A program made the position numbers and the translations under genes. Of a DNA stretch of 34,449 nucleotides, positions 3,156 to 14,316 are shown piece after piece. Every line of letters starts with the position of its first letter. The stretch's first letter is position 1. The notes under the pieces are model-generated. The model saw nothing but the letters and a program-made list of their open reading frames with translations. It did not search any database and was not told the origin of the DNA. Origin of the DNA: an uncultured Flavobacteriales bacterium. Its GTDB lineage: Bacteria; Bacteroidota; Bacteroidia; Flavobacteriales_D; Parvicellaceae. Location: positions 1 through 34,449 of the forward strand of contig CAJQPO010000114.1 in the NCBI GenBank assembly GCA_905480225.1, read 5' to 3'.

Positions 3156-6100
3156 TTAAAATTTAAAAGTTACGTTTAAACCAAGCTCCTTAACAGCTGG
3201 ATATGCTCCCGATTGGTAACCTTGAACATTACCTGCACTTAATCCGGCTTCAGGATCAGTATGAGGAGAATTTTTAAACAAAATAGCTAGATTTCTACCT
3301 ATGATTCCAACATCAATTCCTTGAATACCTTTTCCATTAAACATAGTCGTTGGAAAAGAATAAGTAATCATCAATTGTCTCAGCTTTACATAAGTGGCAT
3401 CATAAACATGCATTGCATTTGGAGCAGTTGCCCAACCATATGCATTTGCATAATTATCAAAATCACCATTGATTGTGTTTTCAGCACCTGTAGAAGTCAT
3501 GTTTCCATCAGCATCATATATATAAGCTCCAGAACCATCTACAGCAGCACTAACAGCACCTTCAATATCAATTCCTCCACCATCACTTACGTAATCTCTA
3601 ATGGGATTTCCATCTGAGTTAGTTCCAGCAGTAATGTCGTAAATACCTGTTCCGTAACCATACCAAGTATCCAGAGAGAAGAAACTTCCACCTTTTTGGA
3701 TATCAATTAAAGCGCTTACAGATAGATTTTTATAGCTGAAAGTATTCGTTATACCACCCGTCCAATCTGGAAGCATGTTACCCAAAATTTCTGGCTTAGA
3801 CGTTTTGGCGTATCTAACACCTGAAGCTTCCGTACCATAAACTATTGGTTTACCATCGTGGTATACATAGTTAGTACCATTGATTGTTCCATAAGATTCA
3901 CCAACAGTCGCTTCAATAGTAATACCACCTTGCAATGAGGCTAATTGATACGTTTCTAAATCACCAGTCAACGAAACAACCTTATTTTGGTTTGTTGCCC
4001 AATTCAATCTCATATCCCAGCTAAAATCGCCTGATTTAGATGTGAAAATATTACCATAAAGCTGAAGCTCCATACCTTTATTTTCAATCTCACCAGCATT
4101 AACATACTGGAAATAAGTACCAGAAGAAGATGAAGGTCTAACTGCTAAAATTTGATTCGCAGTAGTAGCCGAGTAATAAGTGAAATCAAATCCTAGTTTA
4201 TTTTTGAAGAATTTATTTTCAAATCCTATTTCAAAACTAGTTGTGTTTTCTGGAAGTAAAGCGTTGTTATAGCCTGTATTTGGAGCACTTGAAAGCGTTG
4301 TCCCTCCAAATGGTGTTCCAACAGAGTAAACATTTTGCAACCGTTGCATTGGTGCATCGTTACCTACCTGAGCGTAATTCAATCTTACTTTACCAAAATC
4401 CATAAAGCTAACATCCAACAATTCAGAATACAATAAACTTAACGTAGCTGCCGGATAGAAGAACGTGTTGTTCTCTTCTGGAAGCGTTGAGCTTTTATCC
4501 ATTCTTGCAGATAAATCTAAATACAAAAACTTGTCATAAGCCAATGTTGCTCTTCCTAAGTATCCATTTACAGCTCTAGATGCATCTGTCTCAGCAGGTG
4601 CTTCAATTCCATTAACACTGTTGCTAAATGAATAAATTCCTGGAACTACCAAACCACCATTCGTCATGGCATCTGTCGTATTAACACCTGATCTTCTAAT
4701 GTTAGTACCGACCATTCCGTAAAGATTGAAAACATCATCCGTTCCGAAACTTCTATCAAAATTCAAGAATAAATCATAATTTCTCTCGTAAAATGATTTG
4801 GTGTACTTACTGTACATGGGTACATCTACAGACTGAGCTCCAATTCTTTCTTCTTGCAATTCACTGAAATTATCATTTGTAATTCTTCCCATTACAGATA
4901 ACCAATCGTTGATTTCATAATCCAACACCATGTTGCCTATGAATCGATCTCTATTGTCTGTGGAATAATTTTGATACCTCATGTAGTAAGGATTATCAAA
5001 GTAATGTGGATCTGCTCTCGTACTCTCTGGAGCAGTGAAACCATAAGCATTCCATGATAAGTTATTCTCATTTAACATGTACGCATCGTATTGTTGTACC
5101 ATATCAACATTAGTACCGTACCATTGTCTGAAACACTGGTTAACGTTTCTATTATCATATCCTGTTCCGAATCGGCCCAAGCCTTGCGTGTTTACATATT
5201 GCATTGATGAGCTGAAGGATAACTTATCCGTCAAATCATAGTTCACATTCAAAGAAGCATTGTTCTTTCTCAAGTTACTATTAGGCATGATTCCTTTTTG
5301 CCTCATATCCGTTAAAGAAAATCTAAATGCACCATTATCATTTGCTCCATCCAAGGCGACTGAATTAGTCGTCATCATGGAAGTTTCATAAAATGTCGTT
5401 GGATCGTTTTCTGCCGCTTCATAAGGAACTGGCTGTAAATATGTCGACATTTCTGGATGAATAGATTGCCATGAAAGTAATTGATCTGCTTCGCTATAGG
5501 CTAAACCAAAAGAAGCATCATCACCCATAGGTGTTGATAGTCCATCTAATGTACCGTCATTATCCACATCAACTTGTTCTACATAACCATTGTAAACAGC
5601 ACCAGTATAAACTGTATCTGGACCATAGTATCGACCGTATCCTTGACCGTATTCTTTCTGATACGTAGGCATGGTGTTTTTATTTATTTTACCAAAGGTC
5701 AAACCAGATGTTACCGTAACACCAATACCTTTTTTACCCTTTGTACCTTTTTTCGTAGTAATCAAAATTACTCCGTTCGCTGCACGCGCACCATACAAAG
5801 CAGATGCAGCAGCACCTTTCAGTACAGATACAGATTCTATATCCTGCGGGTTAATATCCATAGCAGCATTTCCGTAATCAAATCCACCCCTACCAGTTTG
5901 TTGGTTTGAGCTATTTGTAACATCGTTATTAATTGGAATACCGTCTACAACATATAAGGGTTGATTATTACCGCCTATAGAAGTATATCCTCTTATAATA
6001 ACGTTAGCAGACCCACCCATAGTACCACTATTTTTGATTTGAGCACCTGCAACTTGACCGGAAAGAGAACTCATAAAGTTCACGTCGTTCATTTTTGCAA

Positions 6101-6482
6101 TACCGTCACCATCAATAGTTTGTGTCGCGTAACCTAGCGATTTTTTATCTCTAGAGACACCTAGAGCAGTTACAACTAGTTCTTCCATCATCTGGCCTTC
6201 ACCCAGCATCACATCAATCGTTGTGAGCCCCTTTACAGGTTTTTCTTGAGAATCCATTCCAGTAAAAGAAAATACCAATACCGCATCTTCATTTGGCACT
6301 TCTATTTTGTATTTCCCGTTGTCATCAGATGTAGCGCCCTTGTCCGAGCCCTTGATCATAATCATGACTCCTGGAAATCCTCCTCCAGAATCATCGGTAA
6401 CTGTACCACTTACAGTTTTTACTTGTCCTATCACTGCGCTCGAAAGCAGCAGAAACAGAACCATAGTTAAGCAATGTTTCAT
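3156..6482 (-). CDS. SusC/RagA family TonB-linked outer-membrane protein
   Basis: 1108-residue TonB-dependent transporter that imports large nutrients through the outer membrane together with SusD. Order of parts: signal peptide (1-19), CarboxypepD_reg-like domain (about 22-95, VSGTVTDDSGGGFPGVMIMI), a short linker with VVTALG, the plug domain (about 115-245, with RGYTSIGGNNQPLYVVDGIP and the SVLKGAAASALYGARAANGVI segment), and a 22-strand barrel ending in the outer-membrane signature GLNVTFKF. Length and layout are normal for the family. The promoter must lie in the 471-bp gap upstream. No ECF sigma or anti-sigma pair is adjacent, so control by such a pair is not supported here. Confidence 0.95.
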   Translation of the reverse strand: MKHCLTMVLFLLLSSAVIGQVKTVSGTVTDDSGGGFPGVMIMIKGSDKGATSDDNGKYKIEVPNEDAVLVFSFTGMDSQEKPVKGLTTIDVMLGEGQMMEELVVTALGVSRDKKSLGYATQTIDGDGIAKMNDVNFMSSLSGQVAGAQIKNSGTMGGSANVIIRGYTSIGGNNQPLYVVDGIPINNDVTNSSNQQTGRGGFDYGNAAMDINPQDIESVSVLKGAAASALYGARAANGVILITTKKGTKGKKGIGVTVTSGLTFGKINKNTMPTYQKEYGQGYGRYYGPDTVYTGAVYNGYVEQVDVDNDGTLDGLSTPMGDDASFGLAYSEADQLLSWQSIHPEMSTYLQPVPYEAAENDPTTFYETSMMTTNSVALDGANDNGAFRFSLTDMRQKGIMPNSNLRKNNASLNVNYDLTDKLSFSSSMQYVNTQGLGRFGTGYDNRNVNQCFRQWYGTNVDMVQQYDAYMLNENNLSWNAYGFTAPESTRADPHYFDNPYYMRYQNYSTDNRDRFIGNMVLDYEINDWLSVMGRITNDNFSELQEERIGAQSVDVPMYSKYTKSFYERNYDLFLNFDRSFGTDDVFNLYGMVGTNIRRSGVNTTDAMTNGGLVVPGIYSFSNSVNGIEAPAETDASRAVNGYLGRATLAYDKFLYLDLSARMDKSSTLPEENNTFFYPAATLSLLYSELLDVSFMDFGKVRLNYAQVGNDAPMQRLQNVYSVGTPFGGTTLSSAPNTGYNNALLPENTTSFEIGFENKFFKNKLGFDFTYYSATTANQILAVRPSSSSGTYFQYVNAGEIENKGMELQLYGNIFTSKSGDFSWDMRLNWATNQNKVVSLTGDLETYQLASLQGGITIEATVGESYGTINGTNYVYHDGKPIVYGTEASGVRYAKTSKPEILGNMLPDWTGGITNTFSYKNLSVSALIDIQKGGSFFSLDTWYGYGTGIYDITAGTNSDGNPIRDYVSDGGGIDIEGAVSAAVDGSGAYIYDADGNMTSTGAENTINGDFDNYANAYGWATAPNAMHVYDATYVKLRQLMITYSFPTTMFNGKGIQGIDVGIIGRNLAILFKNSPHTDPEAGLSAGNVQGYQSGAYPAVKELGLNVTFKF

Positions 6483-6953
6483 AATTTCACTTTTTGATTT
6501 TTAGATAAAGTTTTCATTTATAAAACTCCTGTTTTCAAGAGTTTAAACAATTAGTTAGTTCACAAAAATTTGGTAAAGAATTAAGACTGAATGGCATCAT
6601 TCATTTTTTGGTCAGTGCTGTAAAAATATCGTTTTTTACTGTGGCATCCAAAAATCAAAATGCCGAAAACCAATAGATTCGTACCGTAAAATCACTTATT
6701 ATACACATACACCACTGATTTACAATCATTTAAAATAGACAATAACTTGTTAGTAATTTACTGAATAAACGATTTACGTCTGGTAATCACGTTGCGTTGG
6801 CATTATTCTTTTGTAATTGGATTTAATTTTATTTGACTGCCAACAAACTAACGACTCATCTCCGAAAGCGGCAGTTTCTTATTCTGTGTAATACTAGTCA
6901 TTGCTATGCGATGTACATATAGGTGTAAACCGAACCAGAGAAGTTGAAATTAA
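6483..6953. other. Leader and promoter region of susCD
   Basis: 471 bp without a convincing gene. On the minus strand TTTTTG (6649-6654) and TATTTTTA (6621-6628) are 20 bp apart and resemble the Bacteroidota -33/-7 pair, with one mismatch in TAnnTTTG. That would give a leader of about 130 nt. I see no known riboswitch fold. The rest of the gap is AT-rich without strong hairpins. Confidence 0.35.
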
Positions 6954-7193
6954 TCATGGGTTATCGGGGAAATGAAGTTTATATTGATCACTTTCCTGCG
7001 CTGACTCCTTAATATATTTGGAAAACATGGTGCGACGAAACTTTAAATCCGAAATTTGAAAGCTATACATGTCGTATCCATGTGTGATTAACCAGCTAAC
7101 AAAATCATCAATCACATCTGGTGTCAATTGAGGCATCGACATGCTATCTTTAAATTGGTCGTATTGGTTTGAATTCTGCATGAAAGAAATCAT
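6954..7193 (-). CDS. Small hypothetical protein
   Basis: 79-residue soluble protein that I do not recognise. It has no signal peptide, membrane helix or cysteine. The middle (about 24-60) reads as mixed alpha/beta, with VIDDFVSWLITHGYDMYSFQISDLKFRR and a basic patch FRRTMFSKYIK. An alternative ATG four codons in (MQNSN) is possible. It lies 112 bp after the response regulator on the same strand, with no terminator seen between, so it may be co-transcribed. Composition looks coding and there is no larger overlapping gene, but with no homology evidence the call rests on the open frame alone. Confidence 0.5.
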   Translation of the reverse strand: MISFMQNSNQYDQFKDSMSMPQLTPDVIDDFVSWLITHGYDMYSFQISDLKFRRTMFSKYIKESAQESDQYKLHFPDNP

Positions 7194-7305
7194 TTAAAAA
7201 ATAAAGATAGTCGAAACAAAATTATGCGTAGTTGCCCATTCAAATTTCAACAAACTTATTATCTGTTAAAAGGCCTTAACACCAACGGAATTAAAATAGA
7301 AAATT

Positions 7306-7881
7306 TTAAGAACAGATCCGAATAATGAAATAGATCAGAATAATATAAAGTATTATACCATAGATGTTATACGACCAGCGCTTGATTTTTATTTCATTCC
7401 AATTTGGACTTACGTGATCCACTTGGAGAATATCTGTAATAACACCACGAAGCTGTTTTTCGTAATATTGGTCTTTAGCAACGTAACTAAAAGCCCCATA
7501 TTTTATCAATTTAGAAGTCACATCCGAATTAGATTGACCTGAAACAATAATCACTTTAGTATTGGGAGACTTTTCATGAATTTCTTGCATCAAATCCAAT
7601 CCATTAATGGAAATTTGGTTAGTAACATCCAGATAATAATCAAGGATGACGATGTCTGGTTTTCTATACATCTCTCTCAAGCATTCCCCCGCGCTTGAAA
7701 AGCCCTCAATAATTAGTTGCTTCGTATTATCTAACGTCTTGTCCGGAAACAAGTTTAAATAACGACGCATGAGCTGCAAATCATATGGAGAATCATCTAC
7801 AATAAAAATAGAGCACTCCTTTAAGGCCGTTTTGCCAGTTATGTAATTGCCAAATCGAAATTGTTGTGTAAATATGGTCAA
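7306..7881 (-). CDS. Response-regulator receiver protein with C-terminal membrane helix
   Basis: The core (about 22-155) is a CheY-like receiver: acidic pair Asp29-Asp30 (IFIVDDS), phospho-acceptor Asp81 (VIILDYYLD region), conserved Ser114 (VIIVSGQS) and Lys136 (AKDQ). Instead of a DNA-binding or enzymatic output domain it ends in a hydrophobic segment (about 171-189, YNIYGIILYIILIYFIIRI), which would anchor it in the inner membrane. That is unusual for a receiver. No histidine kinase is adjacent. The start is uncertain: the frame contains no ATG before residue 38 and stops upstream at 7924-7926. TTG at 7881 gives 191 residues; a shorter product from a non-ATG codon near residue 24, 6 nt after an AAAGGAG string, is also conceivable. 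Confidence 0.85.
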   Translation of the reverse strand: MTIFTQQFRFGNYITGKTALKECSIFIVDDSPYDLQLMRRYLNLFPDKTLDNTKQLIIEGFSSAGECLREMYRKPDIVILDYYLDVTNQISINGLDLMQEIHEKSPNTKVIIVSGQSNSDVTSKLIKYGAFSYVAKDQYYEKQLRGVITDILQVDHVSPNWNEIKIKRWSYNIYGIILYIILIYFIIRICS

Positions 7882-8100
7882 GGCACAGAATTTATTCGTT
7901 CTTAAATTGAGCCACTTGACTTTCTAAATTGCTCATTTTAAATCAACGTATTTAGTTTCTAGACACGTAGTTACGAATTAGAAACTAAAAAAGATTGAAG
8001 TTGTCGATAAGCGGAAGCAAAATGTCGTTTGTTATGCTTCTAAATGCTTTAAGTTGCCAGAGGTTCTTGGAATCTTCAGAATTGAGATTCACAAGTTCAA
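7882..8100. other. Intergenic region upstream of the receiver gene
   Basis: About 220 bp between the terminator at 8105-8126 and the receiver gene. No ORF or strong hairpin was seen. It should hold the receiver promoter, but no clean TTG/TAnnTTTG pair is visible on the minus strand. Confidence 0.3.
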
Positions 8101-8104
8101 AAAA

Positions 8105-8126
8105 AAAGGACTCGTGCGAGTCCTTT
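8105..8126 (-). terminator. Strong terminator of minus-strand cassette A
   Basis: Perfect 10-bp stem (8105-8114 with 8117-8126) followed on the minus strand by seven U residues. It lies 35 nt after the stop of the 21-codon ORF at 8161-8226, so it probably ends that short transcript; it could also serve the lipoprotein gene further upstream. Confidence 0.85.
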
Positions 8127-8160
8127 CTATTGAAAAATTAGAATTCTATTTAAGTGGTTT

Positions 8161-8226
8161 CTATTGTTTTGTTTTAATTTCCAAAAGGGAGGCTAGAACG
8201 CCTCTCACTTGTTGGAAATAAAACAT
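8161..8226 (-). CDS. Candidate 21-residue ORF, cassette A
   Basis: ATG at 8226 to TAG at 8161 encodes 21 residues beginning MFYFQQVRGVLASLLE and ending KTKQ. It lies between a promoter-like element (8259-8266) and a strong terminator (8105-8126), so the whole unit is a transcript of about 150 nt. The RNA over the ORF can fold into a long hairpin (outer arms 8177-8184 with 8212-8219, inner arms 8187-8193 with 8200-8206). It may therefore be a small protein gene, a leader peptide or a non-coding RNA with a chance ORF. A second unit of the same design sits at 9109-9320. Confidence 0.4.
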   Translation of the reverse strand: MFYFQQVRGVLASLLEIKTKQ

Positions 8227-8258
8227 TACGGTTAGACAAGGTTAGTGGTTAACTGATT

Positions 8259-8312
8259 CGAATATACAAATAAAATTTTGTTATTTTCGATAAAACGACA
8301 TTTTATTTCGTT
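8259..8312 (-). promoter_or_regulatory. Promoter region of cassette A
   Basis: Minus strand: TATATTCG (8259-8266) is a 7-of-8 match to TAnnTTTG. Upstream, CGAAATAA and CGAAAATAA are 21 bp apart, about two helical turns, and TTTTATCG pairs partly with the first. The block aligns with the promoter of cassette B. No canonical TTG is at -33. Confidence 0.4.
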
Positions 8313-8361
8313 TTTATGTAAAAAACAACAGTTACACCACCTAATCTACTAGGTAAAACAA

Positions 8362-9009
8362 TTATTGTTTGGTAATTGTCGCCGTGCATGATCCAACTCC
8401 ACCTATCAACGGAATTTGGCTACTATCATAATTAAAGGTAACCGTCATTTCAGTTCCACTGGCATTCATAGTGCCAGCGCCATCAAAAACAACATCACCA
8501 CCGATAGTACTGATAGTTTGTGATGAAAAAGTAATGGTCGAGCCACTAATAGTTGCGGTAGCCATACCTCCTACTGCATTCAAAAAGTTATCAAACTGCA
8601 AACCATCTGAACCTGACGCAACACCTTCCTGGGCAGAATTCAAAGGAAATGCAGTTGCAGAACAATCTGAAGCAAGGTTGTACGAGCCTATATAATTACT
8701 TTGACTAATAACCACATTAACCGCTCTAGACAAATTAGCTGTTCCATACTCGTTTTCAGCAGTATAAGTAACCTCAAATGATCCAGAAGTAGATGTGTTA
8801 ACGGCTGAAAGATCTGCAGTAACCGTTGCTACACTTTCATCTGGGTTAATTGCCGTTGCACCGGCATCCGCGTATGTGCTGCCAACCGTTACCAAATCAG
8901 GATTGTTTCCAAGAATAGTTATGGTAGGTGGATTTTTGTCTTTTTTACATGCAACAAATGCAATTATTAAAGCAAGACTTAGTATTGAAATAAATTTTTT
9001 GTTTCTCAT
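8362..9009 (-). CDS. Ig-like (DUF5011-type) lipoprotein
   Basis: 215-residue secreted lipoprotein from the preferred start MRNKKF at 9009; a longer frame to 9042 puts eleven extra residues before a normal signal peptide. The signal peptide ends in the lipobox FVAC, followed by KKDKNPP. Residues about 26-100 are an immunoglobulin-like repeat of the DUF5011 kind: PTITILGNNPDLVTVGSTYADAGATA is its hallmark, and VTYTAENEYGTANLSRAVNVV its last strands. The remaining 110 residues are a beta-rich domain with two cysteines (SDCSATAF and GSCTATIT), resembling C-terminal domains of other Bacteroidota surface lipoproteins. Probable role is surface adhesion or structural; no enzymatic residues are seen. 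It stands alone between two short terminator-ended cassettes. Confidence 0.85.
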   Translation of the reverse strand: MRNKKFISILSLALIIAFVACKKDKNPPTITILGNNPDLVTVGSTYADAGATAINPDESVATVTADLSAVNTSTSGSFEVTYTAENEYGTANLSRAVNVVISQSNYIGSYNLASDCSATAFPLNSAQEGVASGSDGLQFDNFLNAVGGMATATISGSTITFSSQTISTIGGDVVFDGAGTMNASGTEMTVTFNYDSSQIPLIGGVGSCTATITKQ

Positions 9010-9108
9010 AGTTACAGATTTAATTTCTACGAAAATAATCAAAAGCAGTATATGTTTTTCGTTTAGTCAATTTTTCAACTAATTCTAAACCAAAAAATAG
9101 GCCTAAAA

Positions 9109-9141
9109 AAAAGCACCAACTTAGGAGGAGTTGGTGCTTTT
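9109..9141 (-). terminator. Strong terminator of minus-strand cassette B
   Basis: Perfect 13-bp stem (9109-9121 with 9129-9141), loop of seven, and a run of eight U on the minus strand. It separates cassette B from the lipoprotein gene that starts 100 bp further on. It could act as an attenuator if transcription continues from the cassette into the lipoprotein. Confidence 0.88.
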
Positions 9142-9170
9142 GTTTCGTGACGAAACTTGTAGATGGCGTG

Positions 9171-9242
9171 TTAGTTATTAGCAGTAAGCAATATGGGGTT
9201 TAATTTAGCTGAGCTATATCTCAGAATAAACTTAATAAACAC
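9171..9242 (-). CDS. Candidate 23-residue ORF, cassette B
   Basis: GTG at 9242 to TAA at 9171 encodes 23 residues, VFIKFILRYSSAKLNPIL then LTANN. It sits between a good promoter (9290-9319) and a 13-bp terminator (9109-9141), the same arrangement as cassette A. There is no ATG in this frame; the only nearby ATG (9247-9245 region) reads just four codons before a stop. The RNA has several stems: CTGAG/CTCAG within the ORF, and TTTCG/CGAAA just before the terminator. It may be a leader peptide, a small protein or a structured RNA; coding status is unproven. Confidence 0.33.
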   Translation of the reverse strand: MFIKFILRYSSAKLNPILLTANN

Positions 9243-9289
9243 CCATTTGTAAAATTTTTAATTAAACTTGGTTTATTCGTCTGATTCTT

Positions 9290-9355
9290 CAATAATACAA
9301 ATATTTTTTCAAAAAACAACGATTAAACCGAATATTATTTCGATTAAACCACTTT
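9290..9355 (-). promoter_or_regulatory. Promoter and repeat-type operator of cassette B
   Basis: Minus strand: TTG (9317-9319), 19 bp, TATTATTG (9290-9297), which is a good Bacteroidota promoter. Just upstream the 10-mer GGTTTAATCG occurs twice with a 21-bp period, the phasing used by proteins that bind direct repeats on one face of DNA. The same region aligns with the promoter of cassette A. Confidence 0.55.
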
Positions 9356-9359
9356 TTTT

Positions 9360-9593
9360 AAAGATGAATAGAATTTAGGGCAAGCAAACATAATCGATCA
9401 TTGTGTTGTTTTCCCAAGAATTATCGTCCTTTAATCAGCACAGAAAACAAACCAAAATGACCCCGATGAACCACTTAGATAGAAGCGTTTGTTTTAGGAA
9501 TTGACCACACTGAAAAACTGTCTAGGCTTGCCAATATGGAAGACACTACCCCATTATTCATAAAAACCAATGATTACGAACTAATCGCTTCGC
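9360..9593. other. Intergenic region with a possible degraded plus-strand ORF
   Basis: The plus strand is open from 9479 to 9640 (about 53 codons, e.g. EAFVLGIDHTEKLSRLANM) with an internal ATG at 9536. Another ATG frame at 9457 (MTPMNHLD) is one base out of register with it. This could be the remnant of a small frameshifted gene. Nothing recognisable was found, and the last part overlaps the thioesterase antisense. Confidence 0.2.
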
Positions 9594-10031
9594 TTATTGA
9601 TAACCGATTTTTTGACTCAACATCACCTTACTCTTAACAAAATTACCAGTGCCGAAAGCCACCTCCTTGCCAACGTCATTGAAGAGTGTCGCTGAAGCAG
9701 AAAATAAATTTTCCGACGAAAAACGAATTTCTCCAAATGCACGAACCTTTCCTTCAGATACGGGCCGAACTAAATTAACATTAAAAGATGTCGTGAGAAC
9801 GAAATAATCATCGACCACGGAGTTGACAGCGAAAAATGCTGCATCATCCAACAACTTAAAATAGACTGAACCGTGCATAGCGCCTAGCGCATGAAAATAT
9901 TGATCACTCACTTCCAATCCAACACTGCATCTTCCTTCAGAAATAGTTATGGTAGAAGTGCCATACAATGCTTTATTGAAATTTGCGCCAAGATACATGC
10001 GCTCCAATTTGCGAAAATGCTCTGCACCCAT
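9594..10031 (-). CDS. PaaI-like hotdog-fold thioesterase
   Basis: 145-residue hotdog-fold acyl-CoA thioesterase of the PaaI/YbgC-like group. The key segment is ALGAMHGSVYFKLLDDAAFFAVNS (about 49-72): the HGS turn and the following helix with the acidic residues line the active site in this family. The C-terminal half shows the usual strands (VLTTSFNVNLVRPVSEGKVRAFGEI and SASATLFNDVGKEVAFGTGNF). It starts 9 nt after the small membrane protein gene and should be co-transcribed with it. The acyl substrate is not predictable. In Flavobacteria such genes sometimes lie next to menaquinone genes, but none is seen here. Confidence 0.88.
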   Translation of the reverse strand: MGAEHFRKLERMYLGANFNKALYGTSTITISEGRCSVGLEVSDQYFHALGAMHGSVYFKLLDDAAFFAVNSVVDDYFVLTTSFNVNLVRPVSEGKVRAFGEIRFSSENLFSASATLFNDVGKEVAFGTGNFVKSKVMLSQKIGYQ

Positions 10032-10040
10032 TTCGTCTGA

Positions 10041-10238
10041 TTAATTTGTTGGCAAGATAGAATCTACTTTTGTCTCAACTTCAGAATTTATAGCATCCTT
10101 GGTTTTTGACTTTAAACCATTTAACAAATCGTCTCCTTTTTCTTTAACTTCTTGACAAAATGTCTCGGGATACATATAGATATAAACGTTTTCACCCACT
10201 AAAGCGATGAACAATATAAATATGAGTATACTTTTCAT
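10041..10238 (-). CDS. Small membrane-anchored or secreted protein
   Basis: 65-residue protein, not recognised. An N-terminal hydrophobic segment (about 3-23, SILIFILFIALVGENVYIYMY) is a signal anchor or signal peptide without a lipobox. The rest is a hydrophilic, charged helix (EVKEKGDDLLNGLKSKTKDAINSEVETKVDSILPTN) that resembles short amphipathic helical tails. It begins only 15 nt after the terminator hairpin of the TPR gene, so its promoter must overlap that terminator or it relies on read-through. It precedes the thioesterase by 9 nt. Confidence 0.65.
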   Translation of the reverse strand: MKSILIFILFIALVGENVYIYMYPETFCQEVKEKGDDLLNGLKSKTKDAINSEVETKVDSILPTN

Positions 10239-10253
10239 AAATCAAGAGTACAA

Positions 10254-10290
10254 AAAAAGGCCTTTTGAAATGGAGTCAAAAGGCCTTTTT
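10254..10290 (-). terminator. Terminator after the TPR gene
   Basis: Perfect 15-bp stem (10254-10268 with 10276-10290), 7-nt loop, with U-runs on both strands. It begins 22 nt after the stop of the TPR gene and ends the gyrA-TPR transcription unit. Confidence 0.9.
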
Positions 10291-10311
10291 ATTAAAAGTT
10301 CTTTGTTAAAA

Positions 10312-11535
10312 TTAGCCTTGTAATTTCTTTTTCATTTCTGACCACTTCTCATCCAAACCTAGACGGCCATAAATTTGCTTCAAAGCAGTCATCGTATTCC
10401 GATCTTCAGCATTTATACTGTGTGCCTTTTCCAAAACCGGCATGGCCTTATTCATTAATTCCTCCGCTTTTTTTACTTTCTCATCCTGCAGCACTACGTC
10501 TGTTAACGTCTGCACTTCATCATAAATCTCAACAGCTTGATTAAAATAGGACACTCCTTTAGAATACAATCCATCAAAATAGTTTGGATCAATTGCCAAT
10601 GCTGCGTCGTATGCTTTTTCCGCATCTGCATATCTTTTAAGATTATCATAAATGGTTCCTATTGAAAAATGCAGAACCGGGTTATTAGGTTCTTTCGCAA
10701 TAACTTTCGCCATACTCTCCTCCGCTTTGGCATATTGTTCGGAAAGTAAATATCCATTCAATTGTTCTTTTACCAAATCCATATTACCAGGATATTTTTC
10801 AAGAGCCTGTTCAATAGTAGCCCTCGCCAAATCAGATTTCCCTTGTTTAGTTTGTGTTTGCGAAAGTAAAACATGCGTTAAAGCTCCTTGATAACCGAGA
10901 TCAGCACACCTTTTATAGTATACCTCTGCCTCATCGAACTTTTCCAATTTCTCACATGCCAACCCCGCGTTATAAAACGACAACGAATCAGACAACTCTA
11001 TCAGTTCTGCAATATCTGAAGCACCTTTGAACGCCTCATAGGCCTCATCGTACTTTTTTTCATTGAAAAACTGCACACCAGTGGACGCTAATCCCCATCT
11101 CATCAAATTCATTTTCTGCTTTAGCACGGGCCAATGCTCTTTTTTAGCATCTGTTTCCTTGCATTTTTTGGCAGAACCAAACACCGCTTCTTCCATAAGC
11201 TTGGCATTCTTTTCTACATCTGCCTTCACCTCGGAATCGGTACCTGCCATCATCATGTAAGTAATGTATATATCACACCTATACCTCCATAATTTCGGAA
11301 TATCCCGTGATTTCAAAGCTGGCGCAGCAGCTTGCTTGTCGTGCGCCGCATCAATGTAATTCTTTGCTGAAATAATTTTCCCTTTAACTTTTGAGAAATC
11401 ACTTGACTTTTGGGCTTCTGGCAACATTTTCTGAGCAGAGTTGAACGCCAGAGCTGCTGATGTTAAGTCTTTACCTTGCCCAAAAGCAAGCGATGTTAGA
11501 CCTATCATGCAAATTACAATAAGTGTTTTTTTCAT
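10312..11535 (-). CDS. Secreted tetratricopeptide-repeat protein
   Basis: 407-residue periplasmic protein from ATG at 11535 (an ATG four codons upstream at 11547 is also possible). The signal peptide MKKTLIVICMIGLTSLAFGQ is followed by tetratricopeptide repeats covering most of the chain: repeats are clear at LSFYNAGLACEKLEKFDEAEVYYKRCADLGY, LARATIEQALEKYP, and VLHFSIGTIYDNLKRYADAEKAYDAALAIDP. TPR domains mediate protein contacts, so it may act as a scaffold in the envelope. It follows gyrA by about 160 bp on the same strand, and the gyrA-TPR order recurs in Flavobacteria as far as I recall; the functional link is unknown. Ends in a strong terminator. Confidence 0.88.
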   Translation of the reverse strand: MKKTLIVICMIGLTSLAFGQGKDLTSAALAFNSAQKMLPEAQKSSDFSKVKGKIISAKNYIDAAHDKQAAAPALKSRDIPKLWRYRCDIYITYMMMAGTDSEVKADVEKNAKLMEEAVFGSAKKCKETDAKKEHWPVLKQKMNLMRWGLASTGVQFFNEKKYDEAYEAFKGASDIAELIELSDSLSFYNAGLACEKLEKFDEAEVYYKRCADLGYQGALTHVLLSQTQTKQGKSDLARATIEQALEKYPGNMDLVKEQLNGYLLSEQYAKAEESMAKVIAKEPNNPVLHFSIGTIYDNLKRYADAEKAYDAALAIDPNYFDGLYSKGVSYFNQAVEIYDEVQTLTDVVLQDEKVKKAEELMNKAMPVLEKAHSINAEDRNTMTALKQIYGRLGLDEKWSEMKKKLQG

Positions 11536-11703
11536 TTTGATTTTCATTTAAATGCTTTTAAAGCACTATTCATTTATATGTGATGCAAAAATATAATTTA
11601 ATCCATAAGCCCTATAGCAATTACTTTGCCAATAAATAATCAGTTTATTGAAATAGGAATCACCCAAAGGAGAATACAACTACTCGAAAACATCATTTAA
11701 CTC

Positions 11704-14316
11704 CTATTCCTCTTCTGAATTACCAGCGTCATCACCAACATTTTCTGGTTCAATTGGATTGCCTTCTTCATCCACATCAATCTCTTCATCATCACTTTTT
11801 TCAACTTTGGCTACAGATGCAATCTCATCCGAACCTCTCAGATTAATTAAACGAACCCCCTGAGTAGCTCTACCCATTGTACGCATGCTTTCAACATGCA
11901 TTCGGATCGTGATACCTGATTTTGTAATAATCATTAAATCATCGTCGTCAGACACGATCTTTATGGAGCATAGCTCACCCGTTTTATCAGTTACATTTAA
12001 TGTTTTAACACCTTTTCCACCTCTATTAGTGATTCTGTAAATTGGCTCGCCATCTTCTGGATCGTTTAGGAAAGTCCGTTTACCGTACCCTTTTTCAGAA
12101 ACAACAAGAATGGTGTCACTAGATTCATTTTCAACGCAAACCATACCAATCACATTATTTCCTTGTCCTACATCAACTCCACGTACACCAGAGGCAGTTC
12201 TACCCATAGCTCGAACCTTCTTTTCATTAAAGCGGATGGCACGACCAGAATTAACAGCTAGCAGGATTTCATTCGACCCATTGGTTAATTTCGCCTCAAG
12301 TAATTCATCTCCCTCACGAATACCAATTGCATTGATTCCATTCGTCCTGGGCCTAGAGTATGCTTCAAGAGCCGTTTTCTTAATCACCCCTTTCTTCGTA
12401 CACATTACTATATAATGTCTATCCACCAATTCATCAACAGCACTCGCTAAACCACTCTCAACATCCTCCTGGATAGCAGGTCGTTTTATATACTCTTCAG
12501 ATTTAACATCACCGGTATTAATATATGCCATTACCTTATCGTCTGGCTCTATATTTACCAAGTTTTGAATCGCTCTTCCTTTTGAGATTTTATTTCCTTC
12601 TGGAACCTCAAACACGCGCATCCAAAAACACTTTCCTTTCTGAGTGAATATCAGTAGGTAATTATGATTAGTTGCTACGAATAAGTGCTCTAAGAAATCT
12701 TTATCTCTGGTATTACTTCCTTTAGAACCCACACCTCCTCTGTGTTGTACTTTGTATTCCGCTAAAGACGTCCTCTTAATGTACCCAGCGTGCGATATAG
12801 TAACCACTACTTCTTCATCCGGAATCAAATCCTCAATCCTCATTTCGCTTGCAGAATACTCTATTGTTGATCGCCTTTCATCACCGTACTTATCTCTTAT
12901 TTCTTCAAGTTCTGTTTTGATGATTAACATTCTTCTACCTTCATTGGCCAGGATATCTTTTAAGTCTGTAATTTTTTCAATCAGCTCATTGTATTCTGTT
13001 CTAAGCTTGTCTTGCTCCAGCCCTGTAAGTTGACGAAGTCTCATTTCCACAATGGCTCTTGACTGAATGTCCGAAAGCTCAAATCGTTCAATAAGCTTTT
13101 CCCTGGCCTCTTCAGGACTCTTTGAAGCCCTTATGAGCGCAATCACTTCATCGATGTTGTCCGAGGCGATTATTAACCCCTCCAGGATATGCGCTCTTTC
13201 TTCTGCCTTTCTTAATTCGTACTTGGTCCTTCTTACAACAACCTCATGTCTATGTTCAACATAGTGATGAATCATGTCCCTAAGATTCAGTGCAACCGGC
13301 TTGCCATGAACCAATGCAATGTTATTTACAGAAAAAGACGATTGAAGTGCTGTATACTTGTATAATTTGTTTAATACTACGTTCGGAATTGCATCTCTTT
13401 TAAGCTCATACACGATCCGCATTCCATTTCTATCGGATTCATCTCTAATGTCCGAAATGCCATCTATTTTTTTATCATTAACCAAATCAGCCGTTTTCTT
13501 AATCATATCGGCTTTATTGACCATGTATGGGATTTCGGAAACAATAATAGCTTCGCGACCTTCTCTAATTTCTTCAAACGTTGATGTGCCCCGAATAACT
13601 ACTCTTCCTCTACCTTCCTCAAAGGCAGATTTAACGCCTTCATAACCGTAAATTGTACCACCTGTTGGGAAATCTGGAGCTTTGACGTATTCCATTAAGC
13701 CAGCGACATCTATGTCCCGGTTGTCGATGTATGCAATTGTTCCGTTAATAACTTCTGTTAAATTGTGAGGAGGCATGTTTGTGGCCATACCCACCGCAAT
13801 ACCAGAAGCTCCATTAACCAGCAAATTCGGAATCCTGGAAGGTAAAACAGTTGGCTCACTTAAAGAGTCATCGAAATTGGGTCTAAAATCAACTGTTTCC
13901 TTATCCAGATCAGCGAGCATTTCCTCCGCTATCTTTCTTAATCGTGCCTCTGTATAACGCATGGCAGCCGGACTATCTCCATCAACTGAACCAAAGTTAC
14001 CTTGACCATCGACCATCGGATAACGAAGCGACCAACTTTGCGCCATTCTCACCATGGTATCGTAAACAGACGTATCTCCATGAGGATGGTACTTACCCAA
14101 CACTTCACCGACAATTCTTGCCGATTTTTTATACGGTCTGTTTGAGAAGACACCAAGATCTTGCATTCCATAAAGCACCCTTCTATGCACAGGCTTTAAG
14201 CCATCTCTAACGTCTGGCAAAGCCCTTGACACAATCACAGACATTGAATAATCAATGTATGCTGACTTCATTTCTTCCTCTATGCTTACCGGAATAATTC
14301 TTTCTCCTTCTGCCAT
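11704..14316 (-). CDS. gyrA: DNA gyrase subunit A
   Basis: 870-residue type II topoisomerase subunit that cuts and reseals DNA during negative supercoiling. The catalytic tyrosine is Tyr121 ([10 protein letters not shown]). The quinolone-resistance region reads [18 protein letters not shown]: Thr82 sits where E. coli has Ser83, and Asp86 where it has Asp87. Thr at this site occurs naturally in other bacteria, so it is not evidence of resistance. The C-terminal domain has a GyrA-box-like QHRGGVG at 524-530 (one or two changes from QRRGGKG), which supports gyrase rather than topoisomerase IV. The last 30 residues are strongly acidic ([18 protein letters not shown]). Divergent from clpC and followed by a TPR gene. 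Confidence 0.97.

Follow-up and report, generated by a model that had tools for sequence, protein, structure and literature searches.

Two candidate small RNA genes with a shared upstream element in a genus of uncultured Flavobacteriales

Background

Two short units, A and B, lie on the minus strand of the window, the whole 34,449-nucleotide stretch of DNA analysed here, which comes from an uncultured Flavobacteriales bacterium. Downstream of unit A on the same strand is a gene for a receiver-domain protein, and downstream of unit B is a gene for an Ig-like lipoprotein. An initial annotation offered three readings of the units, as leaders or attenuators of these genes, as small-protein genes, or as small RNA genes under one regulator, which raises the question of what each unit encodes and how the two are related.

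Work on small RNA control in Bacteroidota rests on few cultured species. Several small RNAs can be the outputs of one regulator, as are the Qrr RNAs of Vibrio and the csRNAs of streptococci, and in the AgrA-RNAIII system of Staphylococcus a regulatory RNA is placed under a LytTR regulator. Our literature search found no open-access paper on small RNAs of Crocinitomicaceae, or on small RNAs of Flavobacteriales with start sites.

Methods

The draft genome containing the window (G000; 2.76 Mb, 129 contigs) was compared with two other genomes of its genus, G001 and G002. Units A and B were used as blastn queries against 60 relatives, the window genome counted among them, and candidates in each genome were scored (at most 13 for A and 12 for B). 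Covariance models of both units were searched against 39 family genomes. For the pairing tests, the starts of the G002 thioesterase, 65-aa and 79-aa genes were taken from the ORF list.

Results

Both units follow the common plan that the initial annotation had described, with TATTTGTAT and a GAATCAG start zone, CG-containing upstream repeats, a short ORF, and a hairpin followed by a T run (Table 1). The terminators are as strong as claimed, having 9-11 pairs in unit A by folding and 13 in unit B, each with its T run. A mechanical terminator scan of 6000-12000 returned one site versus 4.0 expected and listed neither unit hairpin; folding shows both.

Table 1. Positions of the units, their parts and associated features
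Feature	Position	Strand	Observation
Small RNA A, predicted transcript of ~150 nt	8102..8252	-	Start predicted from the -7 box; 129/151 positions same in G002
Terminator stem-loop of RNA A	8105..8126	-	9/9 pairs kept in G002, one altered on both sides
Long internal hairpin of RNA A	8170..8225	-	Differing columns: 1/38 paired, 11/18 unpaired, in a structure derived from the same G000-G002 alignment
Promoter A: CGAAATAA-N7-TTTTATCG element and -7-like box TATATTCG	8259..8312	-	50/54 identical in G002; exact shared-motif match
Small RNA B, predicted transcript of ~175 nt	9104..9282	-	Start predicted; 161/179 identical in G002
13-pair terminator hairpin of RNA B	9109..9144	-	35/36 identical and one inserted base in G002; 13/13 pairs kept
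Conserved stretch of RNA B with small hairpin	9146..9193	-	45/48 identical; candidate pairing region
Promoter B: -7-like box TATTATTG and a pair of TTTAATCG half-sites at 21-bp spacing	9289..9355	-	60/67 identical in G002; exact shared-motif match; lag-21 self-match
Conserved block beyond terminator B, separate from unit B and just ahead of the Ig-like lipoprotein gene	9012..9060	-	83-90% identity; putative promoter or 5' UTR
Conserved block ahead of the receiver gene, separate from unit A	7965..8035	-	60-83% identity in sliding windows of the alignment
Receiver-domain protein gene	7306-7881		PF00072 the sole Pfam match at E <= 0.01
Lipoprotein-like protein, 366-370 aa	L154:265-1365 (G000:C92); L120:300-1412 (G002:C203); L117:1606-2505 (G001:C71, cut)		

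Outside the window genome, the locus bearing A and B was found in G002 only. By blastn, unit A (8102-8312) is 89% identical and unit B (9104-9355) 90% identical to G002 over the full unit, and alignment with this relative confirmed that both promoter blocks picked out in the initial annotation are conserved. The four neighbouring genes are 81-85% identical to those of G002, and the intergenic identities are 52.5% (9356-9593), 59.2% (8313-8361), 52.7% (7882-8101) and 58.8% (7194-7305); the units are thus conserved about as well as genes. Between these two genomes, both units are islands of conservation that end at their terminators.

Among the 60 relatives, blastn at E <= 1 gave some match in 59 genomes for A and 57 for B. 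The single full-length match beyond G000 was that in G002, and the others among the matches listed were short. The covariance models of A and B recovered G000 and G002 at ~1e-37 and ~1e-45. Model A had a match at E <= 1 in 26 of the 39 family genomes, the best beyond these two being 0.0036 (G005), and model B at E <= 0.5 in 4 of the 39, the best being 0.019 (G009). With these models the other 37 family genomes yielded no convincing copy of RNA A or RNA B; since the scored candidates numbered at most 74 (A) and 68 (B) per genome, a weak copy may have escaped the search. For G001, neither blastn nor the covariance models gave a convincing match to either unit, and its genome yielded no receiver gene at E <= 1e-20 and no Ig-like lipoprotein at E <= 0.001. 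The receiver-domain gene is present in 2 of the 39 family genomes, and a contig search of the genome collection with it returned a receiver from another phylum, 29% identical. By eye, the receiver protein has a C-terminal hydrophobic segment. In Rfam 15, a tRNA was the sole match in the window above its gathering score. At a relaxed E-value, all 26 matches in 7880-9450 fell below their gathering scores, with no credible family among them.

Both RNAs are predicted to be strongly folded. RNA A has a fold z of -5.86 in G000 and -5.85 in G002, and RNA B has one of -5.11 in G000; for neither was any of 200 shuffles of the G000 sequence equally stable. All counted pairs (28 in RNA A, 50 in RNA B) are still paired in G002, and the differences in the long hairpin of RNA A sit in loops and bulges. 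One pair in RNA A and two in RNA B are changed on both sides, numbers that 250 and 115 of 500 shuffles also reach; none of this covariation is significant, coming from two close sequences with structures drawn from the same alignments. Because double changes are few, shuffles match them frequently and the structures share their alignments, these counts support the folds and do not prove them. The terminator loop of RNA B is C-rich (CTCCTCC), the same in G002, and might base-pair with purine-rich stretches ahead of start codons. According to pairing probabilities, 9146-9193 of RNA B is mostly unpaired in the G000 fold and partly paired in that of G002.

Upstream of the predicted starts, the units share the element CGAAATNA-N8-TTWATCG, which ends 23-24 nt ahead of a sigma-A-like -7 box. 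The -7-like boxes, TATATTCG in A and TATTATTG in B, are kept in G002 and comprise the letters following TATTTGTAT. They resemble the flavobacterial sigma-A consensus TAnnTTTG given in the excerpted text of PMC9723704. The TATTTGTAT of the initial annotation is present, but the TTTG of its copy in unit A is not kept in G002, which has TATTCTTAT there.

It was the pair of TTTAATCG half-sites, 21 bp apart, that first drew attention to additional sites in the G001 and G002 genomes. The full pattern has eight exact matches in the three genomes of the genus, with none of the eight lying in an ORF of at least 90 aa, and they fall into three promoter groups: those of A and of B, each in G000 and G002, and that of a genus-restricted lipoprotein-like gene (upstream sites at G000:C92, G001:C71, G002:C203 and G002:C79). 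Because the pattern was built from sites already known, G000:C92 is the sole new match of the eight; an orthologous site had served in writing the motif. For the 30 of the 36 other family genomes that the listing covered, it gives five exact matches, all inside ORFs of at least 90 aa, of which two look like one gene in two species. At Ig-like lipoprotein loci of other genera, the motif was not reported at 8 of 10, the other two matches coming without a locus. With up to one mismatch allowed, the motif scan that the initial annotation had proposed gave 33 sites in the genus versus 25 for a control pattern (14 versus 7 in G000, 8 versus 5 in G001, 11 versus 13 in G002), no clear enrichment. Among the 22 one-mismatch sites with loci, 17 are inside ORFs and 5 outside; three further matches carry no locus.

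The 21-bp repeat period claimed for both units was borne out by self-comparison in promoter B (lag 21, P 0.008 for that lag and 0.17 for any lag) but not in promoter A (P 0.22; best lag 30). In the lipoprotein-like promoters the period is clear in G001 and G002, and lag 42 is strongest in G000. Support for the element comes from the match between promoters. By eye, CAAAAT recurs in promoter A and the lipoprotein-like promoters, after the last CG and ahead of the -7 box.

The lipoprotein-like gene is present in 3 of the 39 family genomes, all of this genus. Neither Pfam nor NCBIfam gave a match to the G000 protein at E <= 0.01; the mature part of these proteins, by eye, starts with a CDESENLLTERS-type sequence. 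Unit B in G000 is flanked by a thioesterase gene and a 65-aa gene, and relatives of both share a contig with the lipoprotein-like gene in G001, a DnaJ/TerB-domain gene lying between. Near-identical copies of its promoter occur on two contigs of G002 (G002:C79:95-144, at the contig end, and G002:C203:8061-8110) and could reflect a duplication, or else differences between strains within the assembly.

Pairing of the RNAs with six nearby genes was assessed in 18 tests, of which none stood out and none gave a consistent target (lowest P 0.02 and 0.04, calculated for G000 only). RNA B also matches a gene of both G000 and G002 over 22 nt, but the match lies within the coding gene and in the same sense, and it was rejected as a pairing target for that reason.

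Discussion

We conclude that A and B are probably independent genes for two non-coding small RNAs, each ended by an intrinsic terminator, with sigma-A-type promoters and a shared factor that acts on tandem half-sites and also controls the lipoprotein-like gene, trans pairing being the likeliest mode of action. The conserved folded RNAs and the shared upstream element favour the suggestion in the initial annotation of small RNA genes under one regulator. Each RNA would be read from a promoter with a TAnnTTTG-like -7 box, its start placed by that box. A transcription factor, which we guess to be an activator, would bind the half-sites CGAAATNA...TTWATCG, spaced by 21 bp or two turns of the helix and placed just upstream of, or overlapping, the -33 region, and would thereby control both RNAs and the genus-restricted gene. 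By analogy with small RNAs in general, RNA A may pair in trans through its conserved unpaired 5' end, TTAACCACTAACCTTGTCTAACCG, and RNA B through its conserved unpaired middle, TATTGCTTACTGCTAATAACTAACACGCCATCTACAAG.

The short ORFs of the initial annotation do exist, with 21 codons in unit A and a 23-codon GTG ORF in unit B, but neither is conserved in G002, where indels have left 43 codons with a different second half in A and 34 codons with a different C-terminal part in B. Small proteins of 21-23 residues would account for the open frames in both units and for the likeness of their first parts between the species, the first ~15 codons of the unit B ORF keeping frame; set against this are the alteration of both ORFs in the sole relative found and the hairpin of RNA A, which varies in loops and not in stems. 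We consider that reading very improbable, and the units, judged from their sequences, look like RNAs rather than peptides.

A leader role would fit the position of each unit upstream of a same-strand gene, with a signal opening the terminators in the manner of an attenuator or riboswitch. It would also fit RNA B, in which either of two helices can form to the exclusion of the other, ATGGG paired to CCCAT or ATGG-GTGTT to AACAC-CCAT, at -42.2 and -39.8 kcal/mol in G000 and -40.0 and -40.8 in G002; the differences are 2.4 and 0.8 kcal/mol, the three strands involved are unchanged, and energies this similar mean that RNA B may be a switching RNA. Yet the terminator hairpin is retained in both of these folds, and folding revealed no stable antiterminator in either unit or species: even the best antiterminator duplex falls short of the terminator hairpin in unit A (-6.9 versus -11.8 kcal/mol in G000, -3.8 versus -10.3 in G002) and in unit B (-9.1 versus -15.1 and -8.0 versus -15.7). 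Nor is a leader peptide conserved. In sliding windows, identity falls to 20-38% past terminator A and to 60-70% past terminator B, and then rises, to 70-83% around 7980-8025 and in the block before the lipoprotein gene, respectively. The 220 nt that separate terminator A and the start of the receiver gene have 52.7% identity, and the stretch from terminator B to the lipoprotein start has 78.3%. The conserved blocks before the two downstream genes are putative promoters of their own, and each unit has its own promoter-like region and intrinsic terminator, apart from its neighbours in the sequence comparison. This drop past each terminator, followed by a separate block, makes the leader or attenuator role put forward in the initial annotation unlikely for both genes.

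The small RNA reading is compatible with a different view of the upstream element, as a core promoter specific to the taxon, or as curved AT-rich DNA, and not an operator. The element directly adjoins the -33 region and its surroundings are AT-rich, and by eye the block upstream of the Ig-like lipoprotein gene has CGAAAA ~24 nt before TATTTTCG; eight exact matches in three genomes and three promoter groups are, however, too few for a core promoter, and we give this view a low chance. A bound factor may instead resemble LytTR regulators. According to the excerpted text of PMC11347149, the canonical LytTR site consists of 9-bp direct repeats with 10-13 bp spacers, and CoxC has three direct repeats at 18-21 bp intervals. 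The CoxC and RcoM1 operators described there consist of direct repeats, two or three in number and spaced by about two turns of the helix, that overlap the -35 region or lie close to it; the element here resembles them in layout, although the half-site is TTWATCG here and TTCNNGCA for RcoM1 (PMC11347149). LytTR matches number 13 in G000, 12 in G001 and 9 in G002, none linked to the element sites, and a LytTR protein as the regulator is a reasonable if tentative guess. The likeness of A and B to AgrA-RNAIII holds only if the regulator is of that type. Compared by eye, A and B have no obvious resemblance to each other beyond promoter and GAATCA start, and in this they differ from the Qrr and csRNA siblings. 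It is a speculative and rather doubtful extension that RNA B is a bistable sensor, its conserved helices exposing or hiding the conserved pairing stretch, and that a LytTR-type circuit, possibly one that responds to cell density, has A and B as its paired outputs and also sets a surface lipoprotein.

The statement in the initial annotation that no system of this form had been described was too strong, as both short flavobacterial transcripts and LytTR repeats are on record (PMC9723704, PMC11347149, each in excerpt). The excerpt of PMC9723704 describes 85 independent short transcripts in a flavobacterium. The Rfp1-89 RNAs of Flavobacterium psychrophilum (e.g. Rfp18) have a median length of 176 bp and no coding potential; 18 of the 45 that are non-antisense are strongly folded, and some are conserved in other species (PMC9723704). 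Likened by these partial descriptions, A and B resemble the Rfp RNAs of PMC9723704 in phylum, shortness, lack of coding potential and the TAnnTTTG sigma-A -7 box, and differ as a pair with a shared operator-like element found in two species. Small RNA genes being an ordinary, known kind of gene, A and B are best described as two further examples in a small genus-level regulon. If this is right, one operator ties two small RNAs and a lipoprotein-like gene together in a little-studied Bacteroidota lineage, and the regulator could be sought through that operator and the RNA outputs tested.

Two minor features lie close to the units. The block at 7965-8035 contains two CG steps 21 bp apart (AACGACATTTTGCTTCC..TTATCGACAA) and weakly resembles the shared motif (self-comparison P 0.055 at lag 21, 0.55 for any lag); it may be a degenerate site that the shared regulator binds. 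Between the TPR and 65-aa genes, a long inverted repeat with A/T runs, AAAAAGGCCTTTTGA...TCAAAAGGCCTTTTT, is seen by eye at 10250-10292 of the window and is probably a terminator.
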